This document shows, one piece after another, positions 7,882 through 29,272 of a DNA stretch of 64,000 bases (positions within the stretch are counted from its first letter, which is position 1; each line of letters begins with the position of its first letter). This stretch comes from Leptotrichia hofstadii. GTDB lineage: Bacteria; Fusobacteriota; Fusobacteriia; Fusobacteriales; Leptotrichiaceae. The position numbers and the translations under genes are program-made. The stretch is taken from positions 372,001 to 436,000 of the forward strand of contig NZ_AP019823.1 in the NCBI RefSeq assembly GCF_007990525.1, given 5' to 3'. The notes below the pieces were generated by a model. It was not told the DNA's origin. It did not search any database and was given only the letters and a program-made list of their open reading frames with translations.

Positions 7882-7911
7882 GGACAATGACAACTGAATA
7901 ATAACTGTGAT
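7882..7911 (+). repeat. 29-bp shared cassette box, left boundary of the OLD cassette
   Basis: Positions 7882-7910 match 28423-28451 at 26 of 29 bases. Its last 13 bases (7899-7911, TAATAACTGTGAT) are the exact reverse complement of 9840-9852 at the far end of the cassette. Confidence 0.65.
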
Positions 7912-7919
7912 AAATAATT

Positions 7920-7947
7920 TTGAAATTTTTAGATTTTTAGGTATAAT
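7920..7947 (+). promoter_or_regulatory. Promoter of the OLD nuclease gene
   Basis: TTGAAA (7920-7925), 16-bp spacer, TATAAT (7942-7947), 28 bp before the start codon. Confidence 0.7.
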
Positions 7948-7975
7948 AAATATTATCAGAAACAGGAGGTAATCA

Positions 7976-9823
7976 ATGAAATATAAGAAATTTAGAATAA
8001 GAAATTATAAGGCGATTAAAGATCTAACAATAGAATTGGATAATCAAAATTTGGTTCCAATAATAGGTTTAAATGAAACAGGAAAGAGCTCTATCTTACA
8101 AGCATTATTTGCATTTGATTGCTTTAATGACAAGCAATATAGTGGCGAATTTATAAATTATGACTATATAAAAAATAAATTCGAAAACAAACAAAATCCT
8201 ATTATCGAAGCCGAAATAGAAAATATAAATAAAAACGATTTGATAGAGAACGCAATAGGATATATAATTACACAAAAAGAAGATTATTTTATTTCTAACA
8301 GCCGATACAAAGATAATAGTGAATTTAAAAAGCATCAATATTTAAATTTTATTCGAGATAAATTATTAAGTTTTATGGAAAATGTATTTTTTGATATAAA
8401 AGAAGATAGTTTAAAAATCGCAAGAGAATTTTCAATTACTCAAAATGGTATGTACAATAATAGATATTTAATTTCACAATTAAAAATCAAGGAGTTTAAT
8501 GAAACAATATCAGTAAATGGTTATTCAATCGAAGAACTTTTATTTTATATACCAAAAGAAGAAATAGAACAATTAATAGGAGAATCAATTTTAAAATATT
8601 TACCTCATATAGTATATATTGATGATTTTAAAGATGCGATTCCAAATAGAATCAAAGAAAACGATGATTGGTATTTGTACATCAAGGAAATATTTTCTAG
8701 AAATAAAATGAATGTAAATGACTTTTTGAATAGCACTTTATCAGATAAAGGGACAATGCTGGAAGATATAAAATATGAACTTAATGAAAATCTAGCCAAT
8801 TTATGGGATAAAATGCATGAAAACAGAATAAAAGAAGAATTTAAAACTATAGAAATTGATTTAAAATACGAAGATAAAGAATTCCAATTTTTAATAAATG
8901 ATTTGAGAGAAAAAAGAGAAAACGGAAGACCAAGAACAGTGGTATTTCCAGTAAATATGCGTTCTAAAGGATTTCAGTGGTTTTTCAATTTTTTCATTAA
9001 AATGAAATATAATTGGAAACATATAAGTGATGAAAATTATGGGAGTATAATTTTATTGGATGAGCCAGGAGTATACTTACATACAACTTTTCAGTCAGAA
9101 TTAGTAAAAATATTGAAAGAATTATCGTTAGAAAACAAAATATTCTATACAACACATTTAGAAAATATGGTTAATCCAAAAGTAATAAAAATAAATCAAG
9201 TTCATATAGCAAAAAGAAAAAATGAAAAAGTGATATTAGAAAGAATCACTAAAATTGAAGACAATAAAAATTTAGGAGAAATGACACCGATAATAAATGC
9301 TCTAAAAATAGATAATTTTCCATTATTACATTTTAATGAAAAAATTATAATAACAGAAGGAATGACAGATAAAATATTTCTAGAGATGCTAAAGGAAATT
9401 GAATTGCTGGATACAAATATAAAGATTATTCCTGGTGTAGGAGTTACAAATCTTAGTATTTTAATAGGTTTATTTAGCGGAATTACAGATAATTATACTG
9501 TAATTTTTGATAATGATGATGAAGGAAGAAAATTTTTTGAAAAATATAAAAATGAATATGGTAAAAGAGAAAGTAAAAAATGGATATTACATCGGTCAAA
9601 GGATAAGGGAAAACAAGATATTGTATTGGAGAGTTATTATAGTCCTAAAATAAAAGAAATTTTAGAGAAATATCCGAATGGAATAAAAACAGGATTAATA
9701 GAGTTTTATTATTCTGCAACATCCGAAGAAAAAGAAATATTTTATAAAGAATTAAAAGATTTAAATAGAAAGGGAGAGGATATTCATATTCTTATAAATC
9801 AAATAAAATCAAAATTGAAGTAA
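7976..9823 (+). CDS. OLD-family nuclease (ABC-type ATPase plus TOPRIM)
   Basis: The 615-residue protein has Walker A GLNETGKSS (31-39), an ABC-type Walker B with ILLDEPGVYLH (~360) and a switch-like TTHLENMV, then a TOPRIM domain (~455-540: IIITEGMTDKIFLEML... VIFDNDDEGR) carrying the acidic E and DxD residues. OLD proteins are ATP-controlled nucleases; P2 Old blocks lambda growth, and related proteins serve in Gabija and retron systems. No UvrD-like GajB partner lies beside it, so a stand-alone class 1 OLD is likely. It has its own promoter and terminator inside the phage early region, and weaker A/T-rich codon use than the morphogenesis genes. Exclusion of rival phages is an inference. Confidence 0.85.
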   Translation: MKYKKFRIRNYKAIKDLTIELDNQNLVPIIGLNETGKSSILQALFAFDCFNDKQYSGEFINYDYIKNKFENKQNPIIEAEIENINKNDLIENAIGYIITQKEDYFISNSRYKDNSEFKKHQYLNFIRDKLLSFMENVFFDIKEDSLKIAREFSITQNGMYNNRYLISQLKIKEFNETISVNGYSIEELLFYIPKEEIEQLIGESILKYLPHIVYIDDFKDAIPNRIKENDDWYLYIKEIFSRNKMNVNDFLNSTLSDKGTMLEDIKYELNENLANLWDKMHENRIKEEFKTIEIDLKYEDKEFQFLINDLREKRENGRPRTVVFPVNMRSKGFQWFFNFFIKMKYNWKHISDENYGSIILLDEPGVYLHTTFQSELVKILKELSLENKIFYTTHLENMVNPKVIKINQVHIAKRKNEKVILERITKIEDNKNLGEMTPIINALKIDNFPLLHFNEKIIITEGMTDKIFLEMLKEIELLDTNIKIIPGVGVTNLSILIGLFSGITDNYTVIFDNDDEGRKFFEKYKNEYGKRESKKWILHRSKDKGKQDIVLESYYSPKIKEILEKYPNGIKTGLIEFYYSATSEEKEIFYKELKDLNRKGEDIHILINQIKSKLK

Positions 9824-9838
9824 ATTGAAATAAATTGA

Positions 9839-9870
9839 AATCACAGTTATTAATTTAGCTGTGATTTTTT
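9839..9870 (+). terminator. Terminator of the OLD cassette, carrying the right inverted repeat
   Basis: AATCACAG (9839-9846) pairs with CTGTGATT (9859-9866), followed by T6. The left arm with its loop (9840-9852) is the perfect inverted copy of 7899-7911. Confidence 0.8.
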
Positions 9871-9882
9871 TATGGAGGGAAA

Positions 9883-10059
9883 ATGGATGAAAATGTATTG
9901 GAAAAAATAAAAATTAGATTACTAAGTGGAATCGAAGTAAATGAAAGTGATTTTAATTTCATGAAGTTGAACGCTAATCTATTTAAGAATATTAAATTTA
10001 TCAAGAAAAGAAAGGCTAAAAAGAAATGGCTTACACGGAAATCAAAAACAGCGAGATAA
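9883..10059 (+). CDS. Small basic protein (58 aa)
   Basis: The start ATG follows GGAGGG, directly after the terminator. The N-terminal half is mixed and the C-terminal half strongly basic (KKRKAKKKWLTRKSK). It overlaps the HNH protein gene by 34 bp. No family recognised; DNA or RNA binding would fit the charge. Confidence 0.45.
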   Translation: MDENVLEKIKIRLLSGIEVNESDFNFMKLNANLFKNIKFIKKRKAKKKWLTRKSKTAR

Positions 10060-10742
10060 CAATAACATTAGCCGTAGAAAAAGTTTATCCAGGACTTAAG
10101 CAACAGCTGGAAGAGCGTCTTAATAATTTTCCAATCAAAGTTATTCCTGTAAAAAAATTGTCTAAGGCACAGAACGGACTGATACACGTTTTGTTAAAGC
10201 AGTTCGGAGATGAGATTGGGTACACTTTAATAGAGATTAAGGAACTAATGAAAGAGCAGTTTGCAGTATCCACAGATAGATTAGACTTTTCTACAGCAAA
10301 ATGCGATATGGAAACAGCAAATGAATTTATTTCGTTTATCATAGAACAAGCGTTAGAACTTGGAATAAATTTATATATACTTGGAAAACACGATAAAAGA
10401 TATAAACATATATTGGAAATTGACAATATAACACAAAGATACGTGATTGCCTGCTTGAGAAAAAGAGTTTGCTGTATCTGCGGAAAAGAGCATAACGAGT
10501 ACAGCACAATAGAACTGCATCATTGGAATTCGGTAGCGAGCATAGGCGGATATGAAAACTGTGACGGATTAAAAACACCATTTATGAGCTTATGTACCAA
10601 GCATCATCAGGAATTCCACGCAACAGGCAAGGAAACGTTTAAGAATAAATATTATATTGAAGGGGTTTGGTTAAATGTGGAACTTGTAAAAGAGTTGAAA
10701 AAGATTTACAAAAATCATTTTAGAGCATTTGAGGAGGAATAA
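10026..10742 (+). CDS. Putative HNH nuclease (phage HNHc_6 type)
   Basis: The 238-residue protein has an N-terminal NinB-like or unknown domain (~1-135) and a C-terminal zinc/HNH region: CCICGKEHNEYSTIELHHW, then LCTKHHQEFH. This order matches the 'putative HNHc nuclease' family found in phages of low-GC bacteria, probably in recombination or replication. The TGA-free frame overlaps the upstream small gene. The Cys pair and His cluster needed for metal binding are all present. Confidence 0.7.
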   Translation: MAYTEIKNSEITITLAVEKVYPGLKQQLEERLNNFPIKVIPVKKLSKAQNGLIHVLLKQFGDEIGYTLIEIKELMKEQFAVSTDRLDFSTAKCDMETANEFISFIIEQALELGINLYILGKHDKRYKHILEIDNITQRYVIACLRKRVCCICGKEHNEYSTIELHHWNSVASIGGYENCDGLKTPFMSLCTKHHQEFHATGKETFKNKYYIEGVWLNVELVKELKKIYKNHFRAFEEE

Positions 10743-10743
10743 A

Positions 10744-10953
10744 ATGAAATTTTTAAAAATATATTTGTTAGGATTTGCAATAGTTTTTGCATTTTTAACA
10801 ACAACTGAAACAATAGCGAAAATAGCATCATATAGAAGAACAGGAAGATGGAATAGCCGTAAGTTCGAGTGGAAATATGTTATATATTTTTCACTCTACA
10901 GTTTTGGATTCGTTGTTTTGCTTTTACATGATTATATCGAAAACAGGAGATAG
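10744..10953 (+). CDS. Small membrane protein with two predicted spans
   Basis: The start at 10744 follows GAGGAGG. The 69 residues hold LLGFAIVFAFLTTT and VIYFSLYSFGFVVLLL as membrane segments with a basic loop (SYRRTGRWNSRKFEWK) between. No family recognised. Confidence 0.5.
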   Translation: MKFLKIYLLGFAIVFAFLTTTETIAKIASYRRTGRWNSRKFEWKYVIYFSLYSFGFVVLLLHDYIENRR

Positions 10954-11048
10954 TTCAGTCACAGAAAGTCGATTGGATTAGAAAATTGCTGATGTCGGAA
11001 AAATGATATAAAGAACGTTTGGACGATGTAGGGAAAACGATAAATTAG
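10953..11048 (+). pseudogene. Remnant of a small phage gene
   Basis: One frame reads VQSQKVDWIRKLLMSEK, an in-frame TGA (11004-11006), then YKERLDDVGKTIN and TAG. No start codon is present. The residue pattern is coding-like, so this looks like a decayed small gene. Confidence 0.25.
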
Positions 11049-11057
11049 GAGGAATAA

Positions 11058-11279
11058 ATGGAAATAATAATAAGAATCATAAACGCTTTAATCACAGCAA
11101 CAACTACTTTGGTGCTGGTAAATTTTATTTACGGATTAGTAATGAAATTTAAAATCAAGATGAAGACATTTAAATTCAACATAAGCAACATAATAGCATT
11201 TTTGATTGCTATGATTGTAAATCTATCCGTGATTTACGGATTGATTTGGATTATAAAGTTTTTTGCTATTAAAGTATAA
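11058..11279 (+). CDS. Small membrane protein with two predicted spans
   Basis: The 73-residue protein has hydrophobic segments at ~3-28 and ~43-70 separated by a basic loop (KFKIKMKTFK). The RBS AGGAGG is 6 bp upstream. The size and topology resemble the previous small membrane protein, but the sequences are not clearly related. Function unknown. Confidence 0.5.
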   Translation: MEIIIRIINALITATTTLVLVNFIYGLVMKFKIKMKTFKFNISNIIAFLIAMIVNLSVIYGLIWIIKFFAIKV

Positions 11280-11290
11280 AGTGGTATAAT
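11263..11290 (+). promoter_or_regulatory. Promoter before the 11328 gene
   Basis: TTGCTA (11263-11268), 16-bp spacer, TATAAT (11285-11290). Confidence 0.6.
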
Positions 11291-11327
11291 TAATTATAAT
11301 AAAAAAAGCATTTAAGGAGGATGAAGA

Positions 11328-11564
11328 ATGAGTGATATTCTAATAGACCAAATAGAAGACAAAATATTTATTTTAAGAAAAAAAACGAACGCAGTTAATA
11401 GCGAAATAGAAGAAAGAGAAAGAGATTATGAAATAAAATATCCAAATTCATACGTGATAATTGATTTTAGACTATTTGATTTATACAAAGAAAGAAAGTG
11501 TTTAGAAAACGAATTGTCGGAGTTGAAAAAATTTTTACCATGTGGTTACGGTATTTTGTTTTAG
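11328..11564 (+). CDS. Unknown coiled-coil-like phage protein (78 aa)
   Basis: Two charged helices (ILIDQIEDKIFILRKKTNAV and LYKERKCLENELSELKKF) suggest a helical hairpin. The RBS AAGGAGG is strong. It is transcribed from its own TATAAT promoter. No family recognised. Confidence 0.5.
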   Translation: MSDILIDQIEDKIFILRKKTNAVNSEIEERERDYEIKYPNSYVIIDFRLFDLYKERKCLENELSELKKFLPCGYGILF

Positions 11565-11600
11565 TTCAGCAAAAAAACATTGGCAAAGAGGAGTGGACAA

Positions 11601-11903
11601 GTGGGAAATTATGAATTAATAGATGAAAAAAAGTTTTTTTATGAAAATTTAACAGATTTTGGTTGGGGAGAATTTCGTAAATTTAAAATGGATTTCCTAA
11701 AAGAACATTTTCCAGAAAAATTTAAAAACAAACAAGTGATTGTACTTTTTAAAGGAGAATTTACAGAAGAAATGGAATTAGAATTGATAAGAGAATTTAC
11801 AGAGAAAATGATTCGAGAAGAAGGGAAAAGATTTCTTGAATTTGCGGCAAATTATCTAGAAGAAAAAGAAAAACAGGAACAAAAGCAAAAAAAAAGGGGA
11901 TGA
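11601..11903 (+). CDS. Unknown phage protein (100 aa)
   Basis: A GTG start at 11601 is preferred because AGAGGAG (11588-11594) lies just ahead; a TTG at 11580 would give a 107-residue form. The product is acidic and helical with a Lys/Glu/Gln tail (LEEKEKQEQKQKKRG). No family recognised. Confidence 0.45.
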   Translation: MGNYELIDEKKFFYENLTDFGWGEFRKFKMDFLKEHFPEKFKNKQVIVLFKGEFTEEMELELIREFTEKMIREEGKRFLEFAANYLEEKEKQEQKQKKRG

Positions 11904-11969
11904 AAAACATCAAAAAAGTTTATTGTTTAAAATTTTAAATTTTTTCAAGAAAAAACAAAGCTCAAACAC

Positions 11970-11998
11970 TTGAAAAAACTGATAAAATAAGGTATAAT
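11970..11998 (+). promoter_or_regulatory. Strong promoter abutting the start of the 12010 gene
   Basis: TTGAAA (11970-11975), 17-bp spacer, TATAAT (11993-11998). The expected +1 (~12005) falls inside the Shine-Dalgarno, leaving a near-leaderless message. Confidence 0.65.
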
Positions 11999-12009
11999 TA
12001 GGAGGTAAC

Positions 12010-12210
12010 GTGAACACAAAAAAAGAACTTACAAAAGATGATATAACAGAATTATTAAAAGATGAAGAAATTTTATATTTACTTGAGGATCTAAAAAAAT
12101 CTAAAGAGCGTCAAGAAGATATAAAAATAACATTAGTATTAAAAAAAGGTAAAATTACTGGAAAAGAATATACGGTAAGAAAATTTAATAATAAAAACAG
12201 GGCAAGATAA
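12010..12210 (+). CDS. Unknown 66-aa protein with its own promoter and terminator
   Basis: A GTG start follows GGAGGT (12001-12006). The protein has an acidic helical N-terminal half (LTKDDITELLKDEEILYLLEDLKKSKE) and a basic strand-like C-terminal half (KITLVLKKGKITGKEYTVRKFNNKNRAR). The private promoter and terminator mark it as a cargo (moron-like) gene just upstream of the packaging genes. No family recognised. Confidence 0.5.
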   Translation: MNTKKELTKDDITELLKDEEILYLLEDLKKSKERQEDIKITLVLKKGKITGKEYTVRKFNNKNRAR

Positions 12211-12223
12211 ACCTCAGATGAGT

Positions 12224-12278
12224 GAGCCGCTGAATAGATAGATTAGAAATAGTCTATTTGTTTAGTGGCTCTTTTTTT
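12224..12278 (+). terminator. Long hairpin terminator after the 12010 gene
   Basis: GAGCCGCTGAATAGA pairs with TCTATTTGTTTAGTGGCTC (a few mismatches), followed by T7. Confidence 0.8.
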
Positions 12279-12306
12279 GTCTAAAAATCAAAGAAAGGGG
12301 GAACAA

Positions 12307-12606
12307 ATGTCGGTTATATTATTGATTGCAAGTTTTTTTATTAATATAGCAGTAATATTGATACTATTTCAAATTATTTGTTATGGGACAAAAAAATACA
12401 TAAAAGAAAGAATCAAAAGAAATTTGGAACTCTTAGACAAATTAGAAGAGATTGAAAAAGATATAGACAACAAGATAGATGGATTAAAGATAATGATATA
12501 TGATAAATATCTTGATAGATGTAGAGTAGGAATGAAGAAACAAAGAGAAGAAGACAAAGGATTGAGAGATAAGCTAGTAGAATTAGAGAATAAATACTCG
12601 AAATAG
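12307..12606 (+). CDS. Small protein with N-terminal membrane anchor and coiled coil
   Basis: The ATG at 12307 has AAGGGGG upstream. Residues 3-26 are a membrane helix (ILLIASFFINIAVILILFQII) and the rest is a charged coiled coil. The topology is that of an anchored cytoplasmic or periplasmic rod. Its place before the terminase does not fit a spanin; function unknown. Confidence 0.5.
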   Translation: MSVILLIASFFINIAVILILFQIICYGTKKYIKERIKRNLELLDKLEEIEKDIDNKIDGLKIMIYDKYLDRCRVGMKKQREEDKGLRDKLVELENKYSK

Positions 12607-12773
12607 CAAATACACCAAACAATCGTTAAAGCGAAAACAAAGAAAAAAAACAAAATTTTGATTAAAAAGGTACTTCCAGAGAGACAAAAAAGAGCGAACG
12701 GGTTCGAAGCCCCAGAAAAAATATGGGTACAATGTTTTTGAAACTTTAGTTCCGTACCAGAAAGGCGGTGTTT
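12607..12773. other. Non-coding stretch before terminase, candidate cos/packaging site
   Basis: No gene is seen here. In lambda-type phages cos lies just before the small terminase gene. This segment is G/C-richer than its surroundings, with a near-palindrome centred on TTCGAA (12701-12712) and three GTAC-containing motifs (~12670, ~12726, ~12753). The cut site itself cannot be read. Confidence 0.35.
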
Positions 12774-13343
12774 ATGGTAGTTAAGGAAGGTCAAATTGTA
12801 AGAGCAATGGATTTAGCAAAAATGCTTGGTGTTTCAGATAGGCATATTAGGGATTTAGCTAATGAAAATGTTGTAAAAAAAACGGCACAAGGAAAATATC
12901 TGCTTTTAGAAAGTGTACGTGGGTATATTGAGTATTTAAAATCTAGGAATGATGCTGATATTAGCTTAAAAGATGAAAAAATTAAGGAAGAAACTAAAAG
13001 GATTATTAAAGATACCGAAATTAAGGAACTCAAAATTAAAGAATTGAAAAATCAATTGCATTCGGCTGATGTTATTGAAAAAGTAATGACAGATAGTCTT
13101 ATAAATATGAAAGGTAAATTGCTTTCCTTATCTAACAAATTAGCACCGCAAATAATAGCATTAGATAATTTGGGAGAGATTCAAGATGTTATCCAAGATG
13201 GAATATTCGAAGCGTTGGAAGAACTTAGTGAATATAATCCAGAGATGTTCAGAAGTAAAAACTTTGTTGAAGACGATGAAGAAGAGGAAATGGAGGTTAA
13301 AAATGAAAAAAGAAAGCATGGCAGACCTAAAAAGAGCCAATGA
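12774..13343 (+). CDS. Terminase small subunit, Nu1 family
   Basis: The 189-residue protein begins with a winged-helix DNA-binding domain (DLAKMLGVSDRHIRDLANENVV, then GKYLLLESVRGYIEYLK), followed by a long helical region and an acidic/basic tail (DDEEEEMEVKNEKRKHGRPKKSQ). Nu1 proteins recognise cos and assemble with GpA. ATG 12774 sits 5 bp after AGGCGG; a GTG at 12768 would overlap the RBS. The 3' end overlaps the large subunit gene by 41 bp. Confidence 0.85.
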   Translation: MVVKEGQIVRAMDLAKMLGVSDRHIRDLANENVVKKTAQGKYLLLESVRGYIEYLKSRNDADISLKDEKIKEETKRIIKDTEIKELKIKELKNQLHSADVIEKVMTDSLINMKGKLLSLSNKLAPQIIALDNLGEIQDVIQDGIFEALEELSEYNPEMFRSKNFVEDDEEEEMEVKNEKRKHGRPKKSQ

Positions 13344-15156
13344 TTTATTTAAAAAGATTTTTTCAGTACTTAAACCTCCGCCAAAACTTACAATTGACAC
13401 TTGGTCTGACAAATATAGGATTTTATCAACTAAGACTTCTAGCGAACCAGGACGGTGGAATACTGATAGAGTTCCATTTCAAAGAGAGGTAATGAGAGCG
13501 ATATCAGATAAAAGGACTGAGAAGGTTGTAATGATGTATGGAGCTCAACTATCTAAAACTGAAATACTTATGAATACATTTGGGTTTTATGCTGATTATG
13601 ATCCAGCTCCAATCATGTTTTTAATGCCTACCAAAGATATGGCTCAAGATTTTTCAAGCACTAGGCTTAACGATATGATTTTGAGTACTCCACAACTTAG
13701 AAACAAAATAATTGAGAGCGATAATTCAAGGGATACTAAAAGGCAAAAGGAATTTGCTGGGGGTTATATAGTTTTGACTGGAAGTAATTCTGCGGCGGAA
13801 TTGTCAAGTAGACCGATTAGGATTTTATTAGCTGATGAAATTGATAGATTTCCGTCTAATGTAAAAGGCGAAGGTGATCCACTTAATCTAGCAATTGAAA
13901 GGACCAAAACATTTTGGAATAAAAAAATTGTGCTTACAAGTACGCCAACCATTAAAGGTGGAAGTAGAGTAGAACTGGAATACGAGAACAGCACAAAAGA
14001 AGAGTATTATGTGCCTTGTCCAAAATGTGGAGAAATGCAAACGTTAAAGTGGAGAAATATCATGTTTGAAGATGTGACACACAAATGTGAAAAATGTTTG
14101 GAAACTTCTAGTGAGTACGATTGGAAAAGAAATCTTATCAAAGGAGAATGGAGAGCACATAATAGTGAAGTTGACAGGTTTCAAGTAAGAGGATTTCATA
14201 TTTCGGAACTTTATAGTCCGTTTTCTAAATGGAGTAGCATTATTAATAAATTTAAAGCGGCAAAAGGTGATGAACAGCTTATGAAAGTATTTGTTAATAC
14301 AGCTCTTGGGGAATGCTGGGAAGAAAAAGTTGAAAGATTTAACTTTGAGGAAATACAAGCGAGAGCTGAAGATTACGGCGAATACTTGAATCATGAAGAT
14401 GGAACTTATGAGGAAGTAGAAATTCCTGACAAAGTCAATGTGCTTACAGCTGGTGTCGATGTTCAAGACAATAGACTTGAGGTTGAAATCGTTGGATGGG
14501 CAAAAGGTGAAGAAAGCTGGGGTATTTATTATAAAGTTATTATGGGAAATCCTGCTTTGCCTTATGTTTGGAATGAATTAGACCAAATTTTATTGAAAGA
14601 TTATTCTTATCAGAACGGAGAAAAAATAAGGGTTGCTTGTGCTTGTGTTGATACAGGTGGGCATCATACTGATGACGTTTATAGGTATGTGAAAGCAAGG
14701 GAACAACTAAATATATTTGGTATAAAAGGAAGTGGAGAAACTGGGAGACCTCTTATTTCGCGTCCTAGTAAGAACAATAAAGGAGGAATTTCCTTATTTG
14801 TCTTGGGAGTTAATACTGGGAAAGATACAATAATGAGTAATCTTAAAGTAAAAGAACCAGGAGCTAAATATATGCATTATCCAAGCAATCCTAAGCGTGG
14901 ATATGATGAAATTTATTTTAAAGGACTTACGTCCGAAATAAAAGTTGTTACATTTAGCAAAGGACAAGCTAAAATCGAGTGGAAAACAGTAGGAGATAAA
15001 AGAAATGAACCGCTCGATATTCGTAATTATGCACAAGCTGCATTAAGAATTGCTAATCCAGATTTAGACATTAGGTACTCAACCGATTTGTTAAATGGAT
15101 TAAGAACACAGAGAGTTAGTAGAAAAAGAAAAATACTGTCGAAAGGAATTAAGTAA
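13303..15156 (+). CDS. Terminase large subunit, lambda GpA family
   Basis: The 617-residue protein carries a GpA-type Walker A variant YGAQLSKTE (79-87), Walker B ILLADEID (174-181), a motor motif TSTPT, a CPKCGE...CEKC zinc pair (~240-265) and a C-terminal nuclease region (GVDVQDNRLEVEIVGW..., CVDTGGHHTDDVYRY). It cuts concatemers and pumps DNA into the capsid. ATG 13303 has TGGAGG upstream; longer in-frame starts lie inside the Nu1 gene without an RBS. Confidence 0.9.
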   Translation: MKKESMADLKRANDLFKKIFSVLKPPPKLTIDTWSDKYRILSTKTSSEPGRWNTDRVPFQREVMRAISDKRTEKVVMMYGAQLSKTEILMNTFGFYADYDPAPIMFLMPTKDMAQDFSSTRLNDMILSTPQLRNKIIESDNSRDTKRQKEFAGGYIVLTGSNSAAELSSRPIRILLADEIDRFPSNVKGEGDPLNLAIERTKTFWNKKIVLTSTPTIKGGSRVELEYENSTKEEYYVPCPKCGEMQTLKWRNIMFEDVTHKCEKCLETSSEYDWKRNLIKGEWRAHNSEVDRFQVRGFHISELYSPFSKWSSIINKFKAAKGDEQLMKVFVNTALGECWEEKVERFNFEEIQARAEDYGEYLNHEDGTYEEVEIPDKVNVLTAGVDVQDNRLEVEIVGWAKGEESWGIYYKVIMGNPALPYVWNELDQILLKDYSYQNGEKIRVACACVDTGGHHTDDVYRYVKAREQLNIFGIKGSGETGRPLISRPSKNNKGGISLFVLGVNTGKDTIMSNLKVKEPGAKYMHYPSNPKRGYDEIYFKGLTSEIKVVTFSKGQAKIEWKTVGDKRNEPLDIRNYAQAALRIANPDLDIRYSTDLLNGLRTQRVSRKRKILSKGIK

Positions 15157-15387: not shown

Positions 15388-15407
15388 GTTAGAAAGAGAG
15401 GTGTGAT

Positions 15408-22614: not shown

Positions 22615-22625
22615 GAGGATAAAGA

Positions 22626-23153
22626 ATGGCTAAAAAGAAACTGCCTTTGGGAATCGTTGACGCTGACCTTTATGTCAATGGTTCGAATGCATTAGAAGGA
22701 GTTGGAGTAGTAGAACTTCCAAATGTGGAATCAGCGACAATAACGACTGAACAGTTTGGTATGGCTGCAGAATTTGAAGCTCCGTTGATTGGACATTATA
22801 AAAAAATGTCAGCTAAGGTAAAAATGGATAGTATGAATGATACATTATTAAATTTTAATAATAATGATTCAATCACACTAGAGTGCTTAGGAGCTTTGCA
22901 AGAATTAGATAGAATGTCGCACTCGCCAAAAGTAACTGGTGCAGATGCAACATTGAAAGGATTTATCACAAAATTTGATGGTCCAAAAGTTGAGAACGGT
23001 AAGAAATTTGAAGGTTCATTTGATTTGAGTATAACTTATTACAAATTAATGATAAATGGTAAAACGATCATTGAAATTGATGTGTTGAATGGAATTTCAA
23101 ATGTAAATGGAAGTTTGAATAATATCATAAGACAATTATTAGGACATATTTAG
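22626..23153 (+). CDS. Major tail tube protein
   Basis: The 175-residue protein follows the sheath, as in P2 (FI then FII). It has KLPLGIVDADLYVNGSNALEG at the start, strand-rich body SATITTEQFGMAAEFEAPLIGHYKKM, and INGKTIIEIDVLNGISNVNG near the end, all typical of the FII tube family. It polymerises around the tape measure. Confidence 0.85.
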   Translation: MAKKKLPLGIVDADLYVNGSNALEGVGVVELPNVESATITTEQFGMAAEFEAPLIGHYKKMSAKVKMDSMNDTLLNFNNNDSITLECLGALQELDRMSHSPKVTGADATLKGFITKFDGPKVENGKKFEGSFDLSITYYKLMINGKTIIEIDVLNGISNVNGSLNNIIRQLLGHI

Positions 23154-23163
23154 GAGGAATAGA

Positions 23164-23496
23164 ATGATTATAAAATTAACGAAAGAATATGATTTAGGAA
23201 GTAAAAAATACAAAGAAATAGATTTGAAACTGGATAATTTGACAGGGGCAGATTTATTGGAATGTGGAAAAGATTATAAATCAAGAATGAAATCTAATGC
23301 CGAAAACTTTAAAGATTTTGATGATGCTTGGGCTTTGACTGTAGCTGAAAAGGCATCAGGCATTAAATACGGGCATTTAATGACATTAGGCGCTGAAGAC
23401 TTTTTAAAAGTAGTAAATCAAACTAAGAATTTTTTAGTAAAAGGTTGGGGAACGGACGAAGACAAGGACGAGAAAACTCCAACGGCGGAAGTGTAA
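23164..23496 (+). CDS. Tail assembly chaperone, short (zero-frame) form
   Basis: The 110-residue protein (LTKEYDLGSKKYKEIDLKLDNLTGADLLECG...) matches the P2 gpE-like tail assembly family placed between tube and tape measure. A U UUU UUA heptamer at 23430-23436, in the correct phase, allows a -1 shift that replaces the last 19 residues by a 77-residue extension. Both forms normally chaperone the tape measure. Confidence 0.8.
   Translation: MIIKLTKEYDLGSKKYKEIDLKLDNLTGADLLECGKDYKSRMKSNAENFKDFDDAWALTVAEKASGIKYGHLMTLGAEDFLKVVNQTKNFLVKGWGTDEDKDEKTPTAEV
23430..23436 (+). promoter_or_regulatory. Programmed -1 frameshift slippery site
   Basis: T TTT TTA lies in the zero frame as AAT TTT TTA. The -1 frame opens at 23427, immediately after a TAA at 23424-23426, and is free of stops to 23669. 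Confidence 0.75.
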
Positions 23497-23669
23497 CAGA
23501 TGACTTTTTAGACTTGATTACAGATTTATTGAGTGGGCTCAACTATTTTAAAATGAATATTAGTTATGAAACACTTATGAAATGTACATTTGATGAGCTG
23601 GATTACTGGATAGCAAGGGCTAATAAGTTGATTGAGGAAGAAAAGGCAAGGCAAGAAGAAAGCGAATAA
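23436..23669 (+). CDS. Tail assembly chaperone, -1 frameshift extension (E' part)
   Basis: This frame has no plausible start of its own and begins just before the slippery site, so it is read as a fusion: 91 residues of the zero frame plus 77 here (168 residues in total). The segment FLDLITDLLSGLNYFKMNISYETLMKCTFDELDYWI resembles the tape-measure-binding E'/T parts of chaperones. The tape measure gene follows after 21 bp. Confidence 0.75.
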   Translation, partial: SKRLGNGRRQGRENSNGGSVTDDFLDLITDLLSGLNYFKMNISYETLMKCTFDELDYWIARANKLIEEEKARQEESE

Positions 23670-23690
23670 AAGGGAGGAAGGAGGTAAATT

Positions 23691-26600
23691 GTGGCAAAAA
23701 ATTTAGAGTTGAACATAGTTCTGGGTGCGGCAGTAGCTAGTGCTATTAGTGGAATGAGTCAAGTTGCAAACGCTTTAAAAAATACGACGAAATCTGTCAA
23801 AGAATTTGAAAAAGAAATCAAAAGCATGGAAAAAGCACAAAAAGCGTTCCAAAATATGGACAAGGCTCGTGATGGATTAAATAAAATTAATTCAGAGTAT
23901 AAAAAAGCTTCCGAACATTTGCAAAAATTGAAAGCTGAATATGAAAGAACTGGGAGTAGTAATAAACAGTTAGCTAAGGAAATAGAACAGGCTGAAAAAA
24001 ATGTTGGAAAATTGAATAAGCAAAAAGAACGACAACAACATGCATTTGAAGCTGCAAGAAGTAAGATAGAAGCTGAAGGCGCTAGTTTATCTAACTACAG
24101 AAACAAGGTTCAAGAAGTTGAAAAAGAAATTGAAAAAATGAATAAACTGAAAGAAGCTCGAAAAAGATATGACGCTAGGCAAGAAACTGTCGGTAAAATG
24201 AAAGACTTTGGGGATAAGCAAATAATGCAAGGTGTGGGAATGGCTGGAGCTTTGACTGTTCCTGTTAAATTAGCAGTTGATTTAGAAAATGCTCAAGCAG
24301 ACTTAAAAAAAGTTGCTGATTTTAGTTCGAAAGAAATGGAAACAGGATTTTACAAAGCAATGAGGAACTTTAGTGAAAATAGTCCACTTTCTCAAGTAGA
24401 ATTATTTCAAATTGCAGGAGCGGGAGCTCAAGCGGGAATAAAAACAGACGAATTAGAAAGATATACCAAAGACGCTGCTAAAATTAAAGTTGCATTTGAC
24501 ATGAATACTGAAGCAGCAGGGAACTTTTTAGCAAAAACTAGAGCACAACTTAACTTAGATCAAAATGGAGTAATGGAATATGCTAACGTAATCAACTATT
24601 TGGCAAACAATGTAGCAGCAACAGCTCCAGAAATTGCTGATATTTCAAGCAGAGTTGCTGGGTTAGGTGGAATGGCTGGTATTTCCAAAGAAGGAGTTGC
24701 AGCACTAGGAGCAAGTTTAGTATCGGTTGGAGTACCTTCGGAAGTTGCAGCAACTGGATTAAAAAATATCTCATTAGGATTAATGGCTGGAGCATCGGCA
24801 ACGAAAAAGCAATCAGCAGCTTTCAAATCTTTAGGGTTAGACGCAGAAGATGTAGCTAAAAGAATGACGAAAGATGGAGAAGGTACATTAATTGATGTTT
24901 TCCAAAGGATAAAGAAACTTCCAAAGGATGTACAGGCGGCGACACTTAAAAATTTATTTGGTAAAGAATCTATTCAATCTGCATCAGAATTGGCAAAACA
25001 TATTGACGAAGTTGGAACAAATATAAAAAATGCTCATGACAAGATGAAAACATCAGGGAGTGTTGATGCAGAATATAATCAAAGGTTGAAAACAATGGGG
25101 AATTCTTTTGATACTTTGAAAAATAGAATTGTTAATATGGGAGTAGATTTAGGTTCGGCATTGGGACCGAGTTTAGTTCAAGTTGCAAATTCTATTGGTC
25201 CACTTATTACTAAATTTTCTCAATTAATACAAAAACATCCACAACTGACTGCAAATATTCTAAAAGCTGTAGCCGGATTTGCAGCATTTAAAATAGGAAT
25301 TGGTGGCTTGGCAAAAGGATTCGCACCAGTTTTTAGCGGAATATCAAAAGGAATGTTGATATTTGATAAATTCAAGGCTGCTGGAAGTTTTACAGAAGGA
25401 TTTAAAACAGCATTTCCAACAATTTCTAAAATTGGTAGTGGGCTAAAGAAATTAGGACAATCTGGATTAAAAGTAGGAAAAGTACTCGGAAAAGGATTAG
25501 TAAAAGGAGTACAAGCAACAGGAAAAGTTGCAAAAATAGCAAGTAGCGGAATAGTCAAAGGTGCTAAATTTGTTGGAAGTGGTGCTATAAAAGGTGCAAA
25601 AGCAATCGGCTCAGGAGCAAAGGCTGTTGGTGGAATGGCAATTCAAGGAGCAGCTAAAGGAATGCAGCTTTTAGCAACAGGAGCGCAGAAAGCTATTGGA
25701 GCAGTAAGAGCAGTTGGTGTGGCTTTGAAAGTTGCTTTTATGGCAAATCCAGTTGGATTTATTATTGCTGCAATAGTTGCTGTTGTTGTGATATTAGTTG
25801 TGCTTTATAACAAATGTTCGTGGTTTAGGAATGGTGTAAATGCAGCTTTTAGAGCAGTAGGTAATTTCATAAAACAGGTTTGGCAAGGTATTAAGCCAGT
25901 TGTAATGGCTGTTATTTCAGGTATCGCAGCTTATATAAGAGTGTACGTTGCTATTTGGAAAGCTATATTTAAAGGGATAGGTATTATATTTAAAGCTATT
26001 TGGAACGGAATAAAAGTAGTTGTAAAAGTAGTAATGGTCGCAATATCGGCTTACATTAGAACGTACATAAATGTCTGGAAAACAATTTTTAAAGTAATTG
26101 GTACAGTTGCCAAAGCTGTATGGAACGCTATCAAATCAACAGCATTAGCATTATGGAATGCTCTAAAAAGTGGGATAACAACAGTAGGCTCATTTTTTAA
26201 ATCGACTTGGGAAGGAATAAAAGGAGCTGCAATTGCTGTATGGAATGGTATTAAATCAGCATTTGATAAAGTTGTTGAAGGATTAAAAAGTGCAATTAGT
26301 GGTGTTGTAAAATTTTTCACGGATAAATGGAACAGTTTAAAAAGCATGGTTTCTAGTGGACTTGGAGCAGTTGGAGGACTTTTAGGAATTGGAAAAAATG
26401 CAGCGGGAACTAACTACTGGAGTGGAGGACTTACAACAGTAGCTGAGCGTGGAGCAGAATTAATCCAAATGCCTGGTAAACCAGCTTTCTTAGCAGAACA
26501 CGAAATGTTATTAAATTTACCTCGTGGTACTCAAATCTTGAATAATCGTGAAACTAGAAATAGTTTTAGAGATAAAATTAGTGGACTAAAAGAGCGAATG

Positions 26601-26756
26601 TCAGGGCTTAGAAATAATGAAGGTTCGAGTGGCGGAGACACTATTAATATTAGTATAACAGTAAATGGAAATGCTGATACAAGTGCAATTGAGAAAGCAG
26701 TAATGAGAGCATTGGCGAAAGCTAAAAATAAAAAAGAAAGGACGGCGTTTGGATAA
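23691..26756 (+). CDS. Tape measure protein
   Basis: A GTG start follows GGAAGGAGG. The 1021-residue protein has an N-terminal coiled coil (~20-165), the TMP core (~190-480; LENAQADLKKVADFSS, ENSPLSQVELFQIAGAGAQAG), Gly/Lys-rich repeats (~600-680), a hydrophobic span (~685-710, VGFIIAAIVAVVVILVVLY), repeated W-x-x-IK units (~715-860) and a C-terminal tail (AERGAELIQMPGKPAFLAEHEM). Its length sets tail length, roughly 150 nm by the usual 0.15 nm per residue. Confidence 0.9.
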   Translation: MAKNLELNIVLGAAVASAISGMSQVANALKNTTKSVKEFEKEIKSMEKAQKAFQNMDKARDGLNKINSEYKKASEHLQKLKAEYERTGSSNKQLAKEIEQAEKNVGKLNKQKERQQHAFEAARSKIEAEGASLSNYRNKVQEVEKEIEKMNKLKEARKRYDARQETVGKMKDFGDKQIMQGVGMAGALTVPVKLAVDLENAQADLKKVADFSSKEMETGFYKAMRNFSENSPLSQVELFQIAGAGAQAGIKTDELERYTKDAAKIKVAFDMNTEAAGNFLAKTRAQLNLDQNGVMEYANVINYLANNVAATAPEIADISSRVAGLGGMAGISKEGVAALGASLVSVGVPSEVAATGLKNISLGLMAGASATKKQSAAFKSLGLDAEDVAKRMTKDGEGTLIDVFQRIKKLPKDVQAATLKNLFGKESIQSASELAKHIDEVGTNIKNAHDKMKTSGSVDAEYNQRLKTMGNSFDTLKNRIVNMGVDLGSALGPSLVQVANSIGPLITKFSQLIQKHPQLTANILKAVAGFAAFKIGIGGLAKGFAPVFSGISKGMLIFDKFKAAGSFTEGFKTAFPTISKIGSGLKKLGQSGLKVGKVLGKGLVKGVQATGKVAKIASSGIVKGAKFVGSGAIKGAKAIGSGAKAVGGMAIQGAAKGMQLLATGAQKAIGAVRAVGVALKVAFMANPVGFIIAAIVAVVVILVVLYNKCSWFRNGVNAAFRAVGNFIKQVWQGIKPVVMAVISGIAAYIRVYVAIWKAIFKGIGIIFKAIWNGIKVVVKVVMVAISAYIRTYINVWKTIFKVIGTVAKAVWNAIKSTALALWNALKSGITTVGSFFKSTWEGIKGAAIAVWNGIKSAFDKVVEGLKSAISGVVKFFTDKWNSLKSMVSSGLGAVGGLLGIGKNAAGTNYWSGGLTTVAERGAELIQMPGKPAFLAEHEMLLNLPRGTQILNNRETRNSFRDKISGLKERMSGLRNNEGSSGGDTINISITVNGNADTSAIEKAVMRALAKAKNKKERTAFG

Positions 26757-26977
26757 TGGCTAACATTAGAGTTTACAGGACACAAAGTGGTGACACTTGG
26801 GATTTGATAGCTTATAGAGTTTACGGAAGTGAAGGCTATTATCATGACCTTATAAGAAGTAATTTAGCTTTAATTGACATCGCCGTTTTTGATGCCAACA
26901 TTCCAATTATTCTTCCTGAAATTGCTGAAGAAAGTGATAATGATACAAGTTTACCGCCGTGGAAGAGAGGTGAATAG
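26756..26977 (+). CDS. Tail protein X (LysM-like)
   Basis: The 73-residue protein has RVYRTQSGDTWDLIAYRVYGSEGYYHDLI and IILPEI, the P2 gpX pattern related to LysM. It overlaps the tape measure stop by one base and precedes the gpD hub, as in P2. Confidence 0.85.
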   Translation: MANIRVYRTQSGDTWDLIAYRVYGSEGYYHDLIRSNLALIDIAVFDANIPIILPEIAEESDNDTSLPPWKRGE

Positions 26978-26979
26978 GA

Positions 26980-27834
26980 ATGGCTTTTGCTAGAAATATT
27001 AGGGTTATAGTTATATTTAATAAAGTTGATATTTCTGAAGAAGTAGCGCATTCTATTTCATCTCTTAACTACACGGACAATTCCAAAAATGCTATAGATG
27101 ATTTAGAAATAGAACTAGAAAATCTAGATTATAGATGGCTTAAAGAGTGGTATCCTGATGAGAACGCTCAATTACTTGTTGGGATTCACGAAGAGCTGGA
27201 AAATGAAACTAATTTTTTAGATTTGGGAACTTTTTATGTGGATGAGCCGACTTTTGAAGACCATAAACTTACTTTAAAATGTTTGGCTTTACCGCTTGAC
27301 CAAAACATTCGGGATCAGAAAAATAGCGTTGCTTGGGAAAATGTAACTTTGAAAGAGCTTGTTACACAGATTGCGAATAAACACGAAATGAATGCAGAGA
27401 TTTATGCAGAGAATGTGTTTTTTGAGAGATTGGACCAGAATCAGGAAACAGATTTAGCCTTTATTAATCGAGTTGTAAAAGAGATTGGCTTGAATATGAA
27501 AGTATCCGACGATAAAATAATTATTTTTGATGATGAGGAAATGGAAAAAAATGATACTATTGAAGTTTTTAACATTAAAGACTATCGAATTAGAAGTTTT
27601 AGCTTGAAAAAGAAAAACAAAGAGATTTACGATAAAGTTGAAGTTTCCTACTATGATCCTGATAAGAAAAAAGTCGTTAAGGAAATCATTACAAAAGAGG
27701 AACTTGACAAGCGTAATCAAGTTACAACTGAAGAAAAAGAATCTAAAAATAAAGATAATAAGAAAAATAATAAGAAGAGTCAGAAAAAGACTAACAAAAA
27801 GCCAGTCAAAAAGGTTAAATCTAAGAAAAAATAA
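26980..27834 (+). CDS. Baseplate hub, N-terminal part of a split gpD
   Basis: The 284-residue protein has the late-control-D hub start (VDISEEVAHSISSLNYTDN..., DLEIELENLDYRWL) and domain two (QNQETDLAFINRVVKEIGLNMKVSDDKIIIFDD). It ends in a Lys-rich tail at TAA 27832-27834. The same reading frame continues after the stop as the next gene, which carries the missing hub domain. gpD is normally a single polypeptide. Confidence 0.8.
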   Translation: MAFARNIRVIVIFNKVDISEEVAHSISSLNYTDNSKNAIDDLEIELENLDYRWLKEWYPDENAQLLVGIHEELENETNFLDLGTFYVDEPTFEDHKLTLKCLALPLDQNIRDQKNSVAWENVTLKELVTQIANKHEMNAEIYAENVFFERLDQNQETDLAFINRVVKEIGLNMKVSDDKIIIFDDEEMEKNDTIEVFNIKDYRIRSFSLKKKNKEIYDKVEVSYYDPDKKKVVKEIITKEELDKRNQVTTEEKESKNKDNKKNNKKSQKKTNKKPVKKVKSKKK

Positions 27835-27843
27835 GAGGTTGAA

Positions 27844-28413
27844 ATGAAGAAAAAGACAACTGGTAAGAAAAAAGGTAAAACAGTTAAAGAATCAAAAGAA
27901 AAATTACAGAAGAAAGCCGAAAGCAAGAAAAAAAGAACTAAAAAAGAAAAAACATTAAAGGTAAAAACAAAAGGAAAAACAGAGCCAAAGAAGGTTGCAA
28001 AAAAGACTTTGAAAGACAATCTTAAACAAGAATATCAGATAACTTTAAATGTTGATGGAAGTACTAAATACTTAGCTGGAGCAATAATTGAGCTTGATGA
28101 AAGCTGGGGAAAGTTTGAAGGTAAATACGTAATTGACAAGGTAACACACGAGATAAGCGGTGATTATACTTGCGAAATTACAGCAATGAAATTAGGTGCG
28201 AGAGAAAACGCAGAGAAAAAAGCAATAGCTCAAACTAAAGAAGAACAAAAGAAAAAAGAAGCTGAAAAAGCTAAGAAAAAAAGTGCGAAGAAGTCGAAAA
28301 GTAAAACAACTTCTAAAGGTAAAAACACTGTGAGAAAATCGGCTAAAAAAGTAAGAGATAAGAAAAATGGTAAAAAAGATAAAAGCATTAAAAAATCTGG
28401 TAAAAGGAAATAG
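27844..28413 (+). CDS. Baseplate hub, C-terminal part of a split gpD
   Basis: The frame is the same as that of the upstream gene, interrupted only by TAA and three codons. AGAGGTT offers an RBS for ATG 27844. Residues ~55-120 (YQITLNVDGSTKYLAGAIIELDESWGKFEGKYVIDKVTHEISGDYTCEITAMKLG) correspond to the hub's C-terminal domain. Lys-rich arms of about 50 and 70 residues flank it. Either two separately made subunits re-associate, or the stop is read through. Confidence 0.7.
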   Translation: MKKKTTGKKKGKTVKESKEKLQKKAESKKKRTKKEKTLKVKTKGKTEPKKVAKKTLKDNLKQEYQITLNVDGSTKYLAGAIIELDESWGKFEGKYVIDKVTHEISGDYTCEITAMKLGARENAEKKAIAQTKEEQKKKEAEKAKKKSAKKSKSKTTSKGKNTVRKSAKKVRDKKNGKKDKSIKKSGKRK

Positions 28414-28422
28414 AATTTTGTA

Positions 28423-28451
28423 GGACAATGATAATTGAATAATGACTGTGA
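28423..28451 (+). repeat. 29-bp shared cassette box, left boundary of the lipoprotein cassette
   Basis: This matches 7882-7910 at 26 of 29 bases. Its last 12 bases (28440-28451, TAATGACTGTGA) are the exact reverse complement of 29242-29253. Confidence 0.65.
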
Positions 28452-28509
28452 AACTAAAATATTTGTTTTTGAGAGATAACAAGCAATTTTAATTTTCTTA
28501 AAAATAAGG

Positions 28510-28515
28510 TATAAT
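28510..28515 (+). promoter_or_regulatory. -10 box of the cassette lipoprotein gene
   Basis: TATAAT 30 bp before the ATG; the -35 is weak. Confidence 0.5.
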
Positions 28516-28545
28516 ATAATAAAATTATTTTTAGGAGGAATTAAG

Positions 28546-29139
28546 ATGAAAAAATTACTAATCGTTTTAATTGTGTTGATTCTAGTTGCCAGTTGTGGAG
28601 AAGAACAAAGAGATAATTCTAAAGCGGAATCAACAAAACAACAAGTGGAAAATAATAATTTAAATTATGAAGTATTGAAAAATTCAAGAGATACAAGTAA
28701 CTTAACTAAAAAAGAAAATACAATAGATATCTTAGTTAAAGATAATATTTCTGAAGAAAATCTAAAGAAAGTAATGAGAAAAGCAGGAAAAGAGCAAATA
28801 AAAGATGCGGATATTCTGTTTATTCGTGCTTATGGAGATAAAAAATTCTTTAATCTTGGTGGCGAAACACACGGAATGATAACTTATTATCCTGATGGAA
28901 CTGTGAAAGATGAAACTTACAGGGCTAAAAAAGAAATTCCGAGTGATAAAGAAAAAGATATTTATATTGATTATTCAAAAACACTTCACGAAACTTTAAA
29001 ATCAAAAGGAAACTACACTAAACAAGAAGAAGAAAATATTGAAGAAGAAATCAATAAAAAAATAGCTAAGAAATATGGAATTTCACAAGAAGAAGTAGAA
29101 AAAATCTTTGATAAAGTTGTTATTTATCAGGGCATGTAG
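28546..29139 (+). CDS. Phage-borne lipoprotein (cargo gene)
   Basis: The signal peptide MKKLLIVLIVLILVASC ends in a lipobox with Cys17. An Asn/Glu-rich linker (~18-65) leads to an alpha/beta domain (~65-197; IDILVKDNISEENLKKVMRK, DILFIRAYGDKKFFNLGGETHGMITYY). The gene interrupts the baseplate operon and has its own promoter, terminator and cassette repeats. Phage lipoproteins made in lysogens often block superinfection or change the envelope; that role is inferred here. Family not recognised. Confidence 0.6.
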   Translation: MKKLLIVLIVLILVASCGEEQRDNSKAESTKQQVENNNLNYEVLKNSRDTSNLTKKENTIDILVKDNISEENLKKVMRKAGKEQIKDADILFIRAYGDKKFFNLGGETHGMITYYPDGTVKDETYRAKKEIPSDKEKDIYIDYSKTLHETLKSKGNYTKQEEENIEEEINKKIAKKYGISQEEVEKIFDKVVIYQGM

Positions 29140-29155
29140 TTTATAAAAAGGAAGA

Positions 29156-29227
29156 TTGTTTATTCGTACTTTGTTAGAAATATTAGGAATAAAAGCAAAT
29201 ATGGATAGAGAAAAAGAAGGAGCATAA
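29156..29227 (+). CDS. Possible 23-aa peptide in the lipoprotein cassette
   Basis: A TTG start with AAGGAAG upstream gives a short amphipathic peptide (LFIRTLLEILGIKANMDREK). It is small and may be chance or a gene remnant. Confidence 0.2.
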   Translation: MFIRTLLEILGIKANMDREKEGA

Positions 29228-29237
29228 GATTTAAAAG

Positions 29238-29272
29238 AAAATCACAGTCATTAATTTGATTGTGATTTTTTT
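29238..29272 (+). terminator. Terminator of the lipoprotein cassette, carrying the right inverted repeat
   Basis: AAAATCACA (29238-29246) pairs with TGTGATTTT (29261-29269), with an inner TCA/TGA pairing, and a T run follows. 29242-29253 is the inverted copy of 28440-28451. Confidence 0.8.

Follow-up and report, generated by a model that had tools for sequence, protein, structure and literature searches.

Why do two unrelated genes lying within phage operons of Leptotrichia hofstadii each carry nearly the same short box in front and, behind, a terminator that matches the box? The window analyzed here, a stretch of 64,000 nucleotides (nt) of the genome (GCF_007990525.1, NZ_AP019823.1, positions 372,001-436,000), holds two such cassettes. 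Box 1, GGACAATGACAACTGAATAATAACTGTGA (7882-7910), and box 2, GGACAATGATAATTGAATAATGACTGTGA (28423-28451), are identical at 26 of 29 bases. In cassette 1, TAATAACTGTGAT (7899-7911) faces ATCACAGTTATTA (9840-9852), and in cassette 2, TAATGACTGTGA (28440-28451) faces TCACAGTCATTA (29242-29253). Both right copies form the 5′ arm and loop of intrinsic terminators, and the base that differs between the two cassettes is matched inside each of them. The boxes, the facing repeats, and the matched base had been reported in a preliminary description of this DNA, which also placed the right copy within the terminator, and direct reading confirmed them. Each box consists of a constant part, AGGACAATGRCARYTRAATA, followed by a variable arm that complements the terminator closing the cassette, over its 5′ stem and loop. 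Judging from the sequence, the box is probably an antiterminator that acts in cis as RNA and is directed at a single terminator, which would let transcription of the host operon pass the terminator of the cargo.

Two copies of the full box are present in the window, compared to none in 100 dinucleotide shuffles, and these are also its only copies in the whole 2.6-Mb genome, where the reversed control gave none. The 12-mer arm alone (at most two mismatches) was found at 22 sites in the window compared to 17.3 expected, and 15 of 100 shuffles were as high. This means that the signal resides in the whole box and its matched pair, because the arm by itself is not beyond chance. Three panels were then used, comprising 13 genomes of the genus Leptotrichia, 33 of the family Leptotrichiaceae, and 98 of the phylum Fusobacteriota (loci and genus genomes are labeled L and G, respectively, with three digits). 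The full box was found at 13 sites in 6 of the 13 genus genomes, including the two of the window; a box-bearing contig of Leptotrichia sp. oral taxon 879 probably corresponds to one of G004. Among the loci fetched first there were 21 box-terminator cassettes, some of which are copies of one another. The constant part (at most one mismatch) was found at 65 sites in 21 of the 98 phylum genomes, compared to 2 sites for the reversed pattern. It was present in 21 of the 33 genomes of the window's family and in none of the 65 genomes outside it. The preliminary description had supposed that the repeats would recur around other cargo genes, and they do; some boxes with the constant part, on the other hand, stand without a pairing terminator.

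In the main pairing test, terminators were called by RNA folding alone, with the arm not consulted, within 3 kb downstream of the box on the same strand. The input was 67 boxes with at most one mismatch in the constant part, de-duplicated by local identity alone so that many are still related, and 200 shuffled arms were used for each. A terminator was found for 63 boxes, and 49 of these 63 paired with it at p ≤ 0.01 and 52 at p ≤ 0.05. Control positions, placed 137, 211, and 389 nt before each box, gave 0 and 4 of 189, respectively. The 49 significant pairs comprised 33 of class 1 (arm classes are given below), seven of class 3, three of class 5, two each of classes 2 and 6, one of class 4, and one, L078, with a further class 1-like variant; hence, 16 have arms other than class 1. 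In these pairs the box lies upstream of its terminator on the same strand at spans of 232 to 2562 nt, which is the geometry of an antitermination RNA, in a search that was one-directional. A cruder terminator finder applied to 83 box-like sites (at most two mismatches) agreed with the main test: 19 sites had no terminator, and of the remaining 64, 50 paired at p ≤ 0.05 and 45 at p ≤ 0.01.

The arms fall into several classes. Weaker hits, found with a sequence model of the box over the 33 family genomes, resemble mainly its first part, and in several of them the sequence that follows differs yet complements another downstream terminator. Six arm sequences, some of them alike, each match their own terminator. 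Class 1 (TRACTGTGA with TCACAGTYA) was found mostly at phage-like loci and at one chromosomal site, and a variant of it (TTATTGTGAT with ATCACAATCA) at L177, beside a gene read by eye as a relaxase. Class 2 (TTTAGTCTTGT with ACAAGACTAAA) was found at L218 and L265, class 3 (AAAAGAGAC with GTCTCTTTT) at the BREX and type III restriction-modification loci L259, L260, and L274 to L278, class 4 (TTTTTGGTCTT with AAGACCAAA) in phages (L226 and L270), class 5 (TTAATCTAGTCTT with AAGACTAGATTAA) at L262, L272, and L273, and class 6 (ATTGAGGG with CCCTCAAT or CCCTCGAT) at L268 and L162. For eight arm-terminator representatives, three of which belong to class 1 or resemble it, the mean predicted pairing energy was −14.6 kcal/mol with the own terminator compared to −4.2 kcal/mol with the others, and the real assignment of arms to terminators was the best of 40,320; the terminator specificity that these energies suggest is a prediction. 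With the cost of closing the long loop left out, 43 of the 49 pairs and seven of the eight representatives had an arm:terminator duplex predicted to be more stable than the hairpin, though in one of the seven by only 0.1 kcal/mol.

Sequence variation at the two ends is coordinated. An alignment of 22 distinct end pairs of the class 1 type had 18 cells with changes on both sides, which none of 500 shuffles reached, and 5 of 15 pairs had changes on both sides, a number reached by 35 of 500 shuffles. Sliding the partners against each other collapsed the pairing. The first cassette of L076 was omitted from this alignment, as its own terminator deviates and it had been joined to the terminator of the second cassette. 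At the base that distinguishes the two cassettes of the window, the 22 end pairs had A:T in 13 cases, G:C in six, G:U in two, A:C in none, and T opposite C in one (L177). Among the 21 first-set cassettes this base agreed in 19, and the other two (L097 and L110) had G opposite T, a combination that can still pair in RNA; there were no cases of A opposite C. The paired region includes both stem and loop bases. Where the class 1 stem has a wobble pair, the arm carries the base that is an exact Watson-Crick match to the 5′ arm, so that it is not a copy of the 3′ arm. For this reason gene conversion of the ends, one of the explanations offered in the preliminary description, fits poorly: the arm complements the 5′ stem and loop instead of copying the 3′ stem, and RNA pairing explains more. 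Pairing beyond the core into the cargo flanks (alignment columns 13 to 15) was inconsistent from cassette to cassette.

The cassettes are set into operons in a characteristic way. The box starts 9 to 283 nt (median, 29) past the stop codon of the upstream gene, which is codirectional in 30 of 33 cases, and the gene behind the terminator is codirectional at 29 of 33 boxed and 33 of 47 unboxed terminators. The unboxed set is provided by the class 1 terminator, TCACAGTYATTAATTTRRYTGTGATTTTTTT, which was found at 73 sites in 13 of 13 genus genomes (at most three mismatches); 47 of the 80 copies examined had no recognized box. Of 48 boxed terminators, 27 have a gene with a start signal no more than 60 nt past the T-run, compared to 4 of 47 unboxed ones (Fisher p 6e-7). 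The boxed figure is conservative, because the start finder missed the baseplate gene 22 nt behind cassette 2. The median distance from the T-run to the next gene was 40 nt for boxed and 208 nt for unboxed terminators, and where a gene lies within 60 nt of a boxed T-run, a promoter would hardly fit between them. Of the four unboxed exceptions, two (L062 and L094) are boxed sites with an arm mismatch. Where cassettes stand in tandem (L069, L084, L103, and L152), a terminator match is followed after a 12- to 13-nt gap by the next box, so that each cassette has its own; an exception is L097, where none was found for the first unit.

Host operons include phage, BREX, type III restriction-modification, conjugation, and housekeeping operons. 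For instance, the L277 cassette lies between an N6_N4 methylase gene (followed by one more gene) and a ResIII subunit gene, the L262 cassette lies behind TrbL, and the L275 cassette has genes for an Eco57I-type methylase, a SMODS protein, and an S_4TM protein on one side and PglZ on the other. The proposal of a common cassette format by which unrelated cargo is accommodated in phage operons is supported, with box and terminator covarying cassette by cassette, except that the format is not confined to phages. As a separate observation, the SMODS nucleotidyltransferase and S_4TM effector genes of L275 are nested between the BREX-like methylase gene and PglZ, and the boxed cassette next to them is toxin-antitoxin-like.

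Filled and empty sites could be compared at two places. At phage site 1, between the Rha and HNHc_6 genes, four relatives (L164, L165, L171, and L172) are empty; the next small gene begins directly at the stop codon of rha, and no box is present at any of the four. The box is therefore not seen as ordinary phage sequence in these four cargo-free loci, the outcome that would have spoken against the preliminary description. The other place is the interval between marR (so named by reading) and rqcH (NFACT), where a cassette is present in 5 of the 13 genus genomes. Two of the five (G001 and G003) have an intact Abi_2 cargo gene, in two others (G002 and G008) the gene is split, and in G000 most of it is deleted; box and terminator are recognizable throughout, the arm having one mismatch where the gene is split. 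In the other eight genomes, no box or terminator was found in the 1.5 kb upstream; the gap between the two genes is about 23 nt in G010 and G004, and another gene precedes in G005, G007, and G009. Ends that outlast their cargo are more readily understood if they serve the operon than if they serve the cargo or mobility.

Antitermination by the box would operate as follows. Each cassette would be a self-contained unit of box, promoter, cargo, and terminator placed within a foreign operon. Polymerase arriving from the host operon would transcribe the box first, and once it had passed the cargo, the arm in the read-through RNA would pair with the terminator over its 5′ stem and loop. Such pairing would block the terminator hairpin and allow the downstream host genes to be transcribed. 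RNA started at the cassette promoter, which is 3′ of the box, would not contain the box and would end at the terminator. In this way the cassette would be insulated for its own expression and transparent to the surrounding operon. The sequences show the two-part box, arms and terminators that change yet stay matched, their placement among neighboring genes, and ends that outlive decayed cargo; from these we infer pairing between RNAs and the read-through that it would cause. We further infer that the constant part may be anchored to the elongating polymerase or to a factor, and tethering of this kind would aid pairing across 0.23 to 2.6 kb.

Several points weigh against this scheme. The main doubt is kinetic: at distances of 1 to 2.6 kb, pairing in competition with a local hairpin would be hard without a tether. 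NusG (PF02357) gave one match in each of the 33 family genomes, with no RfaH- or LoaP-like paralogue evident, and antitermination by a NusG paralogue was rejected on this ground; a literature search gave no match linking the constant part to known NusA binding sites. Eleven of the 63 boxes did not pair at p ≤ 0.05, and for 4 more no terminator was found. The nonpairing boxes include a hairpin-type repeat (L211 to L213), L216 and L223, where the terminator has seemingly been lost, and most of the class 4 phage boxes, although one class 4 box reached p ≤ 0.01. The L177 duplex (−10.0 kcal/mol; p 0.02) is weaker than its own hairpin (−12.5 kcal/mol), an arm mismatch has been acquired in L062 and L094, and classes 2, 4, and 5 share part of their sequence, with cross energies down to −10.5 kcal/mol. 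Site counts are not independent because the sites are related by descent. At L096 and L099, terminators with no recognized box also have a gene directly behind them. Promoter-like sites between box and cargo scored at least 9/12 in 33 of 35 cases, yet just 14 of 35 beat shuffles at 0.05. Finally, the proposed function is predicted from sequence.

The same observations bear on four other explanations. The arms could be DNA ends of a mobile cassette that fold in single-stranded DNA, as in integron attC sites or the substrates of hairpin recombinases, with recombination keeping the ends matched. Identical cargo at different sites and in tandem arrays, the existence of both filled and empty sites, the matching of arms inside each cassette, and the low guanine-plus-cytosine (GC) content of the two cargos of the window (23.6% and 27.1% compared to 31.4% for the surrounding phage stretch, 6746-38457) speak in its favor. 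We consider this explanation unlikely, since the right end has no constant sequence, the ends at marR-rqcH outlived the cargo, and DNA ends have no need of a promoter, a terminator, or codirectional placement. An integron integrase (TIGR02249) scored above the cutoff in 0 of the 13 genomes, in a search that covered the integron type only; subthreshold matches occurred in 13 of 13 genomes and in 14 of 14 controls, as is expected of ordinary tyrosine recombinases, and an integron cassette was rejected. An inverted-repeat transposon was also rejected. The preliminary description had suggested mobility by inverted-repeat ends, but the constant sequence is on the left only, the right end is a terminator, and the arms of other cassettes differ in sequence and still match; comparison by eye of filled and empty sites in diverged relatives showed no clean target duplication or precise junction.

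Box and terminator might instead be mere shared homology for the shuffling of cassettes by general recombination, with the match between the ends having no function. Homology-driven shuffling has reportedly been proposed for regulatory stem-loop cassettes of T4-like phages, and phage site 2 does mix box types and cargo, one box type occurring with different cargo and one cargo with different boxes. The compensatory changes and the several self-matched arm sequences are left unexplained, which makes this a highly improbable account of the matching, even though general recombination is likely the way in which the cassettes spread. A panhandle in the finished RNA, which would protect or process the read-through message in the absence of antitermination, would involve the same pairing in the full-length transcript, and the predicted duplex is strong. 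However, read-through RNA runs past the terminator and so has no 3′ end there to protect, and the genes without promoter room behind boxed terminators would still need an explanation; we regard the panhandle as distinctly improbable. Coincidence between a standard terminator of the genus and a common intergenic repeat sharing 12 bases is hardly credible. The abundance of the class 1 terminator and its many unboxed copies are in its favor, whereas the other arm classes and the controls oppose it and the main pairing test refutes it at the level of sequence. Antitermination by the box is the reading that we retain.

The features of the two cassettes and of their neighbors are collected in Table 1.

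Table 1. Coordinates of cassette features and flanking host genes in the window
Feature	Position	Strand	Remarks
Rha-type antirepressor, host gene 5′ of cassette 1	7218..7856	+	Pfam Phage_pRha 3.6e-17; PHROG anti-repressor
Constant part of box 1, AGGACAATGACAACTGAATA	7881..7900	+	One of 65 phylum sites at ≤1 mismatch
Arm 1, TAATAACTGTGAT	7899..7911	+	Complementary to 9840-9852; 13-bp duplex −16.4 vs hairpin −13.6 kcal/mol (predicted)
Promoter-like TTGAAA-16-TATAAT 3′ of box 1	7920..7947	+	11/12 consensus; shuffled p 0.02
Cargo 1, OLD-like AAA_15/TOPRIM protein, 615 aa	7976..9823	+	GC 23.6%
Terminator 1	9838..9871	+	Stem, loop TTAATT, T-run
HNHc_6 putative nuclease, host gene 3′ of cassette 1	10026..10742	+	Profile search
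Tail/baseplate-hub-like protein, host gene 5′ of cassette 2	27844..28413	+	PHROG search
Constant part of box 2, AGGACAATGATAATTGAATA	28422..28441	+	
Arm 2, TAATGACTGTGA	28440..28451	+	Complementary to 29242-29253; 12-bp duplex −17.4 vs hairpin −13.6 kcal/mol (predicted)
−10-like TATAAT 3′ of box 2, weak −35	28510..28515	+	9/12, not beyond shuffles
Cargo 2, predicted lipoprotein, 197 aa	28546..29139	+	GC 27.1%; lipoprotein read by eye from N terminus
Terminator 2	29238..29272	+	
Baseplate assembly protein, host gene 3′ of cassette 2	29294..29752	+	Starts 22 nt past terminator 2 T-run

Cargo 1 matched Pfam AAA_15 (1.6e-21) and OLD-like_TOPRIM (3e-7) and PADLOC Old (6.4e-27). Cargo 2 gave a subthreshold match to Pfam DUF6567 only and no match in PADLOC or PHROG searches. 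A 59-amino-acid open reading frame (ORF) lies between terminator 1 and the HNHc_6 gene. At other loci, profile searches identified SocA_Panacea with a PemK-like partner just below the cutoff (L015), PemK toxin (L152), Fic/SoFic (L110), Abi_2/AbiD (L058), DUF6290 (L116), a Bro-N antirepressor (L069), AbiEii (L262), a P22_AR_N antirepressor (L268), and RelB with a short YoeB (L274). The cargo classes recognized from sequence include toxin-antitoxin, abortive-infection, OLD, and antirepressor genes; several cargo proteins had no reading in these searches. By eye and with no family match, L152 has a repeat-preceded type III-like arrangement, and L089 and L275 have acetyltransferase-like pairs. Cassettes of about 450 bp at L060, L066, L084, L097, and L151 contain two tiny hydrophobic ORFs that by eye are reminiscent of a type I toxin-antitoxin pair, and two of these cassettes, L066 and L097, had no match in Rfam.

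The constant part of the box contains, by eye, two tandem GACAAT-like hexamers and is found at the left end only, the right end being the intrinsic terminator. A mini-ORF in the box (AGGA-CA-ATG-ACA-ACT-GAA-TAA) was rejected by eye because its spacing is too short and the frame is lost in 30- to 31-nt variants. At L211, L212, L213, and L219, a short repeat without cargo has the box sequence in common with the cassettes; here the complement of the constant part (ACTGTG...CACAGT...AATTGTC) comes within about 40 nt after it, and a sequence resembling a hairpin (TCTCAC..GTG) lies alongside. A related yet distinct motif, AGGACAATGRGAAATGAATAGTA, was found in three genera (g1, g10, and g11) at L052, L093, L201, L205, and L207, and these loci showed no arm-terminator match. 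At L168, on the reverse strand, an OLD homologue with 66% identity has a degenerate box (near 4954) and no recognizable terminator behind the gene. In IMG/VR, 18 sites of the constant part were tested (L014 and L015, from the same scan, lie outside this test). The 10 with a class 1 arm all pair, 9 of them being already in the earlier set. None of the other eight, on metagenome contigs, pairs (four had no terminator found and four were at p ≥ 0.127); they are taken as chance matches, and a wider role in other phages was rejected.

RNA elements comparable to the proposed one are known from other systems. The elements put of phage HK022, EAR of Bacillus, and canT of Tn916 are described as early-transcribed RNAs that let polymerase pass downstream terminators in cis, and the box would resemble them in acting on the transcripts that contain it (PMC9378689, PMC11658703, PMC8955417). 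However, put acts on the elongation complex (PMC9378689), and canT is processive and works with heterologous terminators (PMC11658703), whereas here each box, which is short, complements one terminator and each cassette has a new box; pairing predicts one terminator per box. The conAn system of pLS20-type plasmids is a bipartite protein-RNA system at the start of an operon that serves more than 20 terminators; the same source describes a gene that is expressed apart from its operon through an internal promoter and terminator, which operon transcripts bypass (PMC8955417). The internal promoter and terminator logic is alike, whereas here the bypass would be local, paired, and borne by the inserted cassette. 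A known structured RNA was rejected, since Rfam at the gathering cutoff gave no match in the window or in five further loci. No description of this element was found in the open-licence literature among the matches listed.

In attenuators and riboswitch antiterminators, an upstream RNA pairs with the 5′ arm of the terminator and blocks it. Classical attenuators work within a single leader of a few hundred nucleotides and sense a ligand or translation, whereas here the partners are 0.23 to 2.6 kb apart across whole genes and a constant sequence stands beside the arm. Phage morons are genes of foreign composition with their own promoter and terminator between phage genes. Cassette 1 is moron-like in that it lies between genes that are adjacent in the four relatives with an empty site 1; the terminators here are clear, and the promoter-like site is strong in cassette 1 and weak in cassette 2. 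Unlike morons, the format also occurs outside phages, and we know of no moron with a matched upstream antiterminator. The promoter-early-stem-loop (PeSL) cassettes of T4-like phages, in which an early promoter precedes a stem-loop between phage genes, and the integron cassettes have standard ends common to unrelated mobile cargo. PeSL cassettes are not known to pair with a distant terminator; integrons require an integrase, whereas here none scored above the cutoff in the 13 genomes. A bypass that is matched to a single terminator and carried by each inserted cassette seems to be new.

A gene that enters an operon with its own terminator should silence everything behind it, and these cassettes seem to bring their own remedy. 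The fullest form of the idea is about as probable as its opposite: a constant anchor RNA riding on the elongating polymerase, with a swappable guide arm that opens one matched terminator kilobases away, would serve as an adapter through which defense and toxin-antitoxin genes enter operons without polar effects. Such a remedy would explain the accumulation of toxin-antitoxin and defense genes inside phage and defense operons. If the arm works as proposed, nothing but base pairing would determine which terminator it switches, and this could supply a design rule for gene inserts that are insulated yet transparent. It would also mean that a terminator behind an embedded gene is not always the end of the operon.

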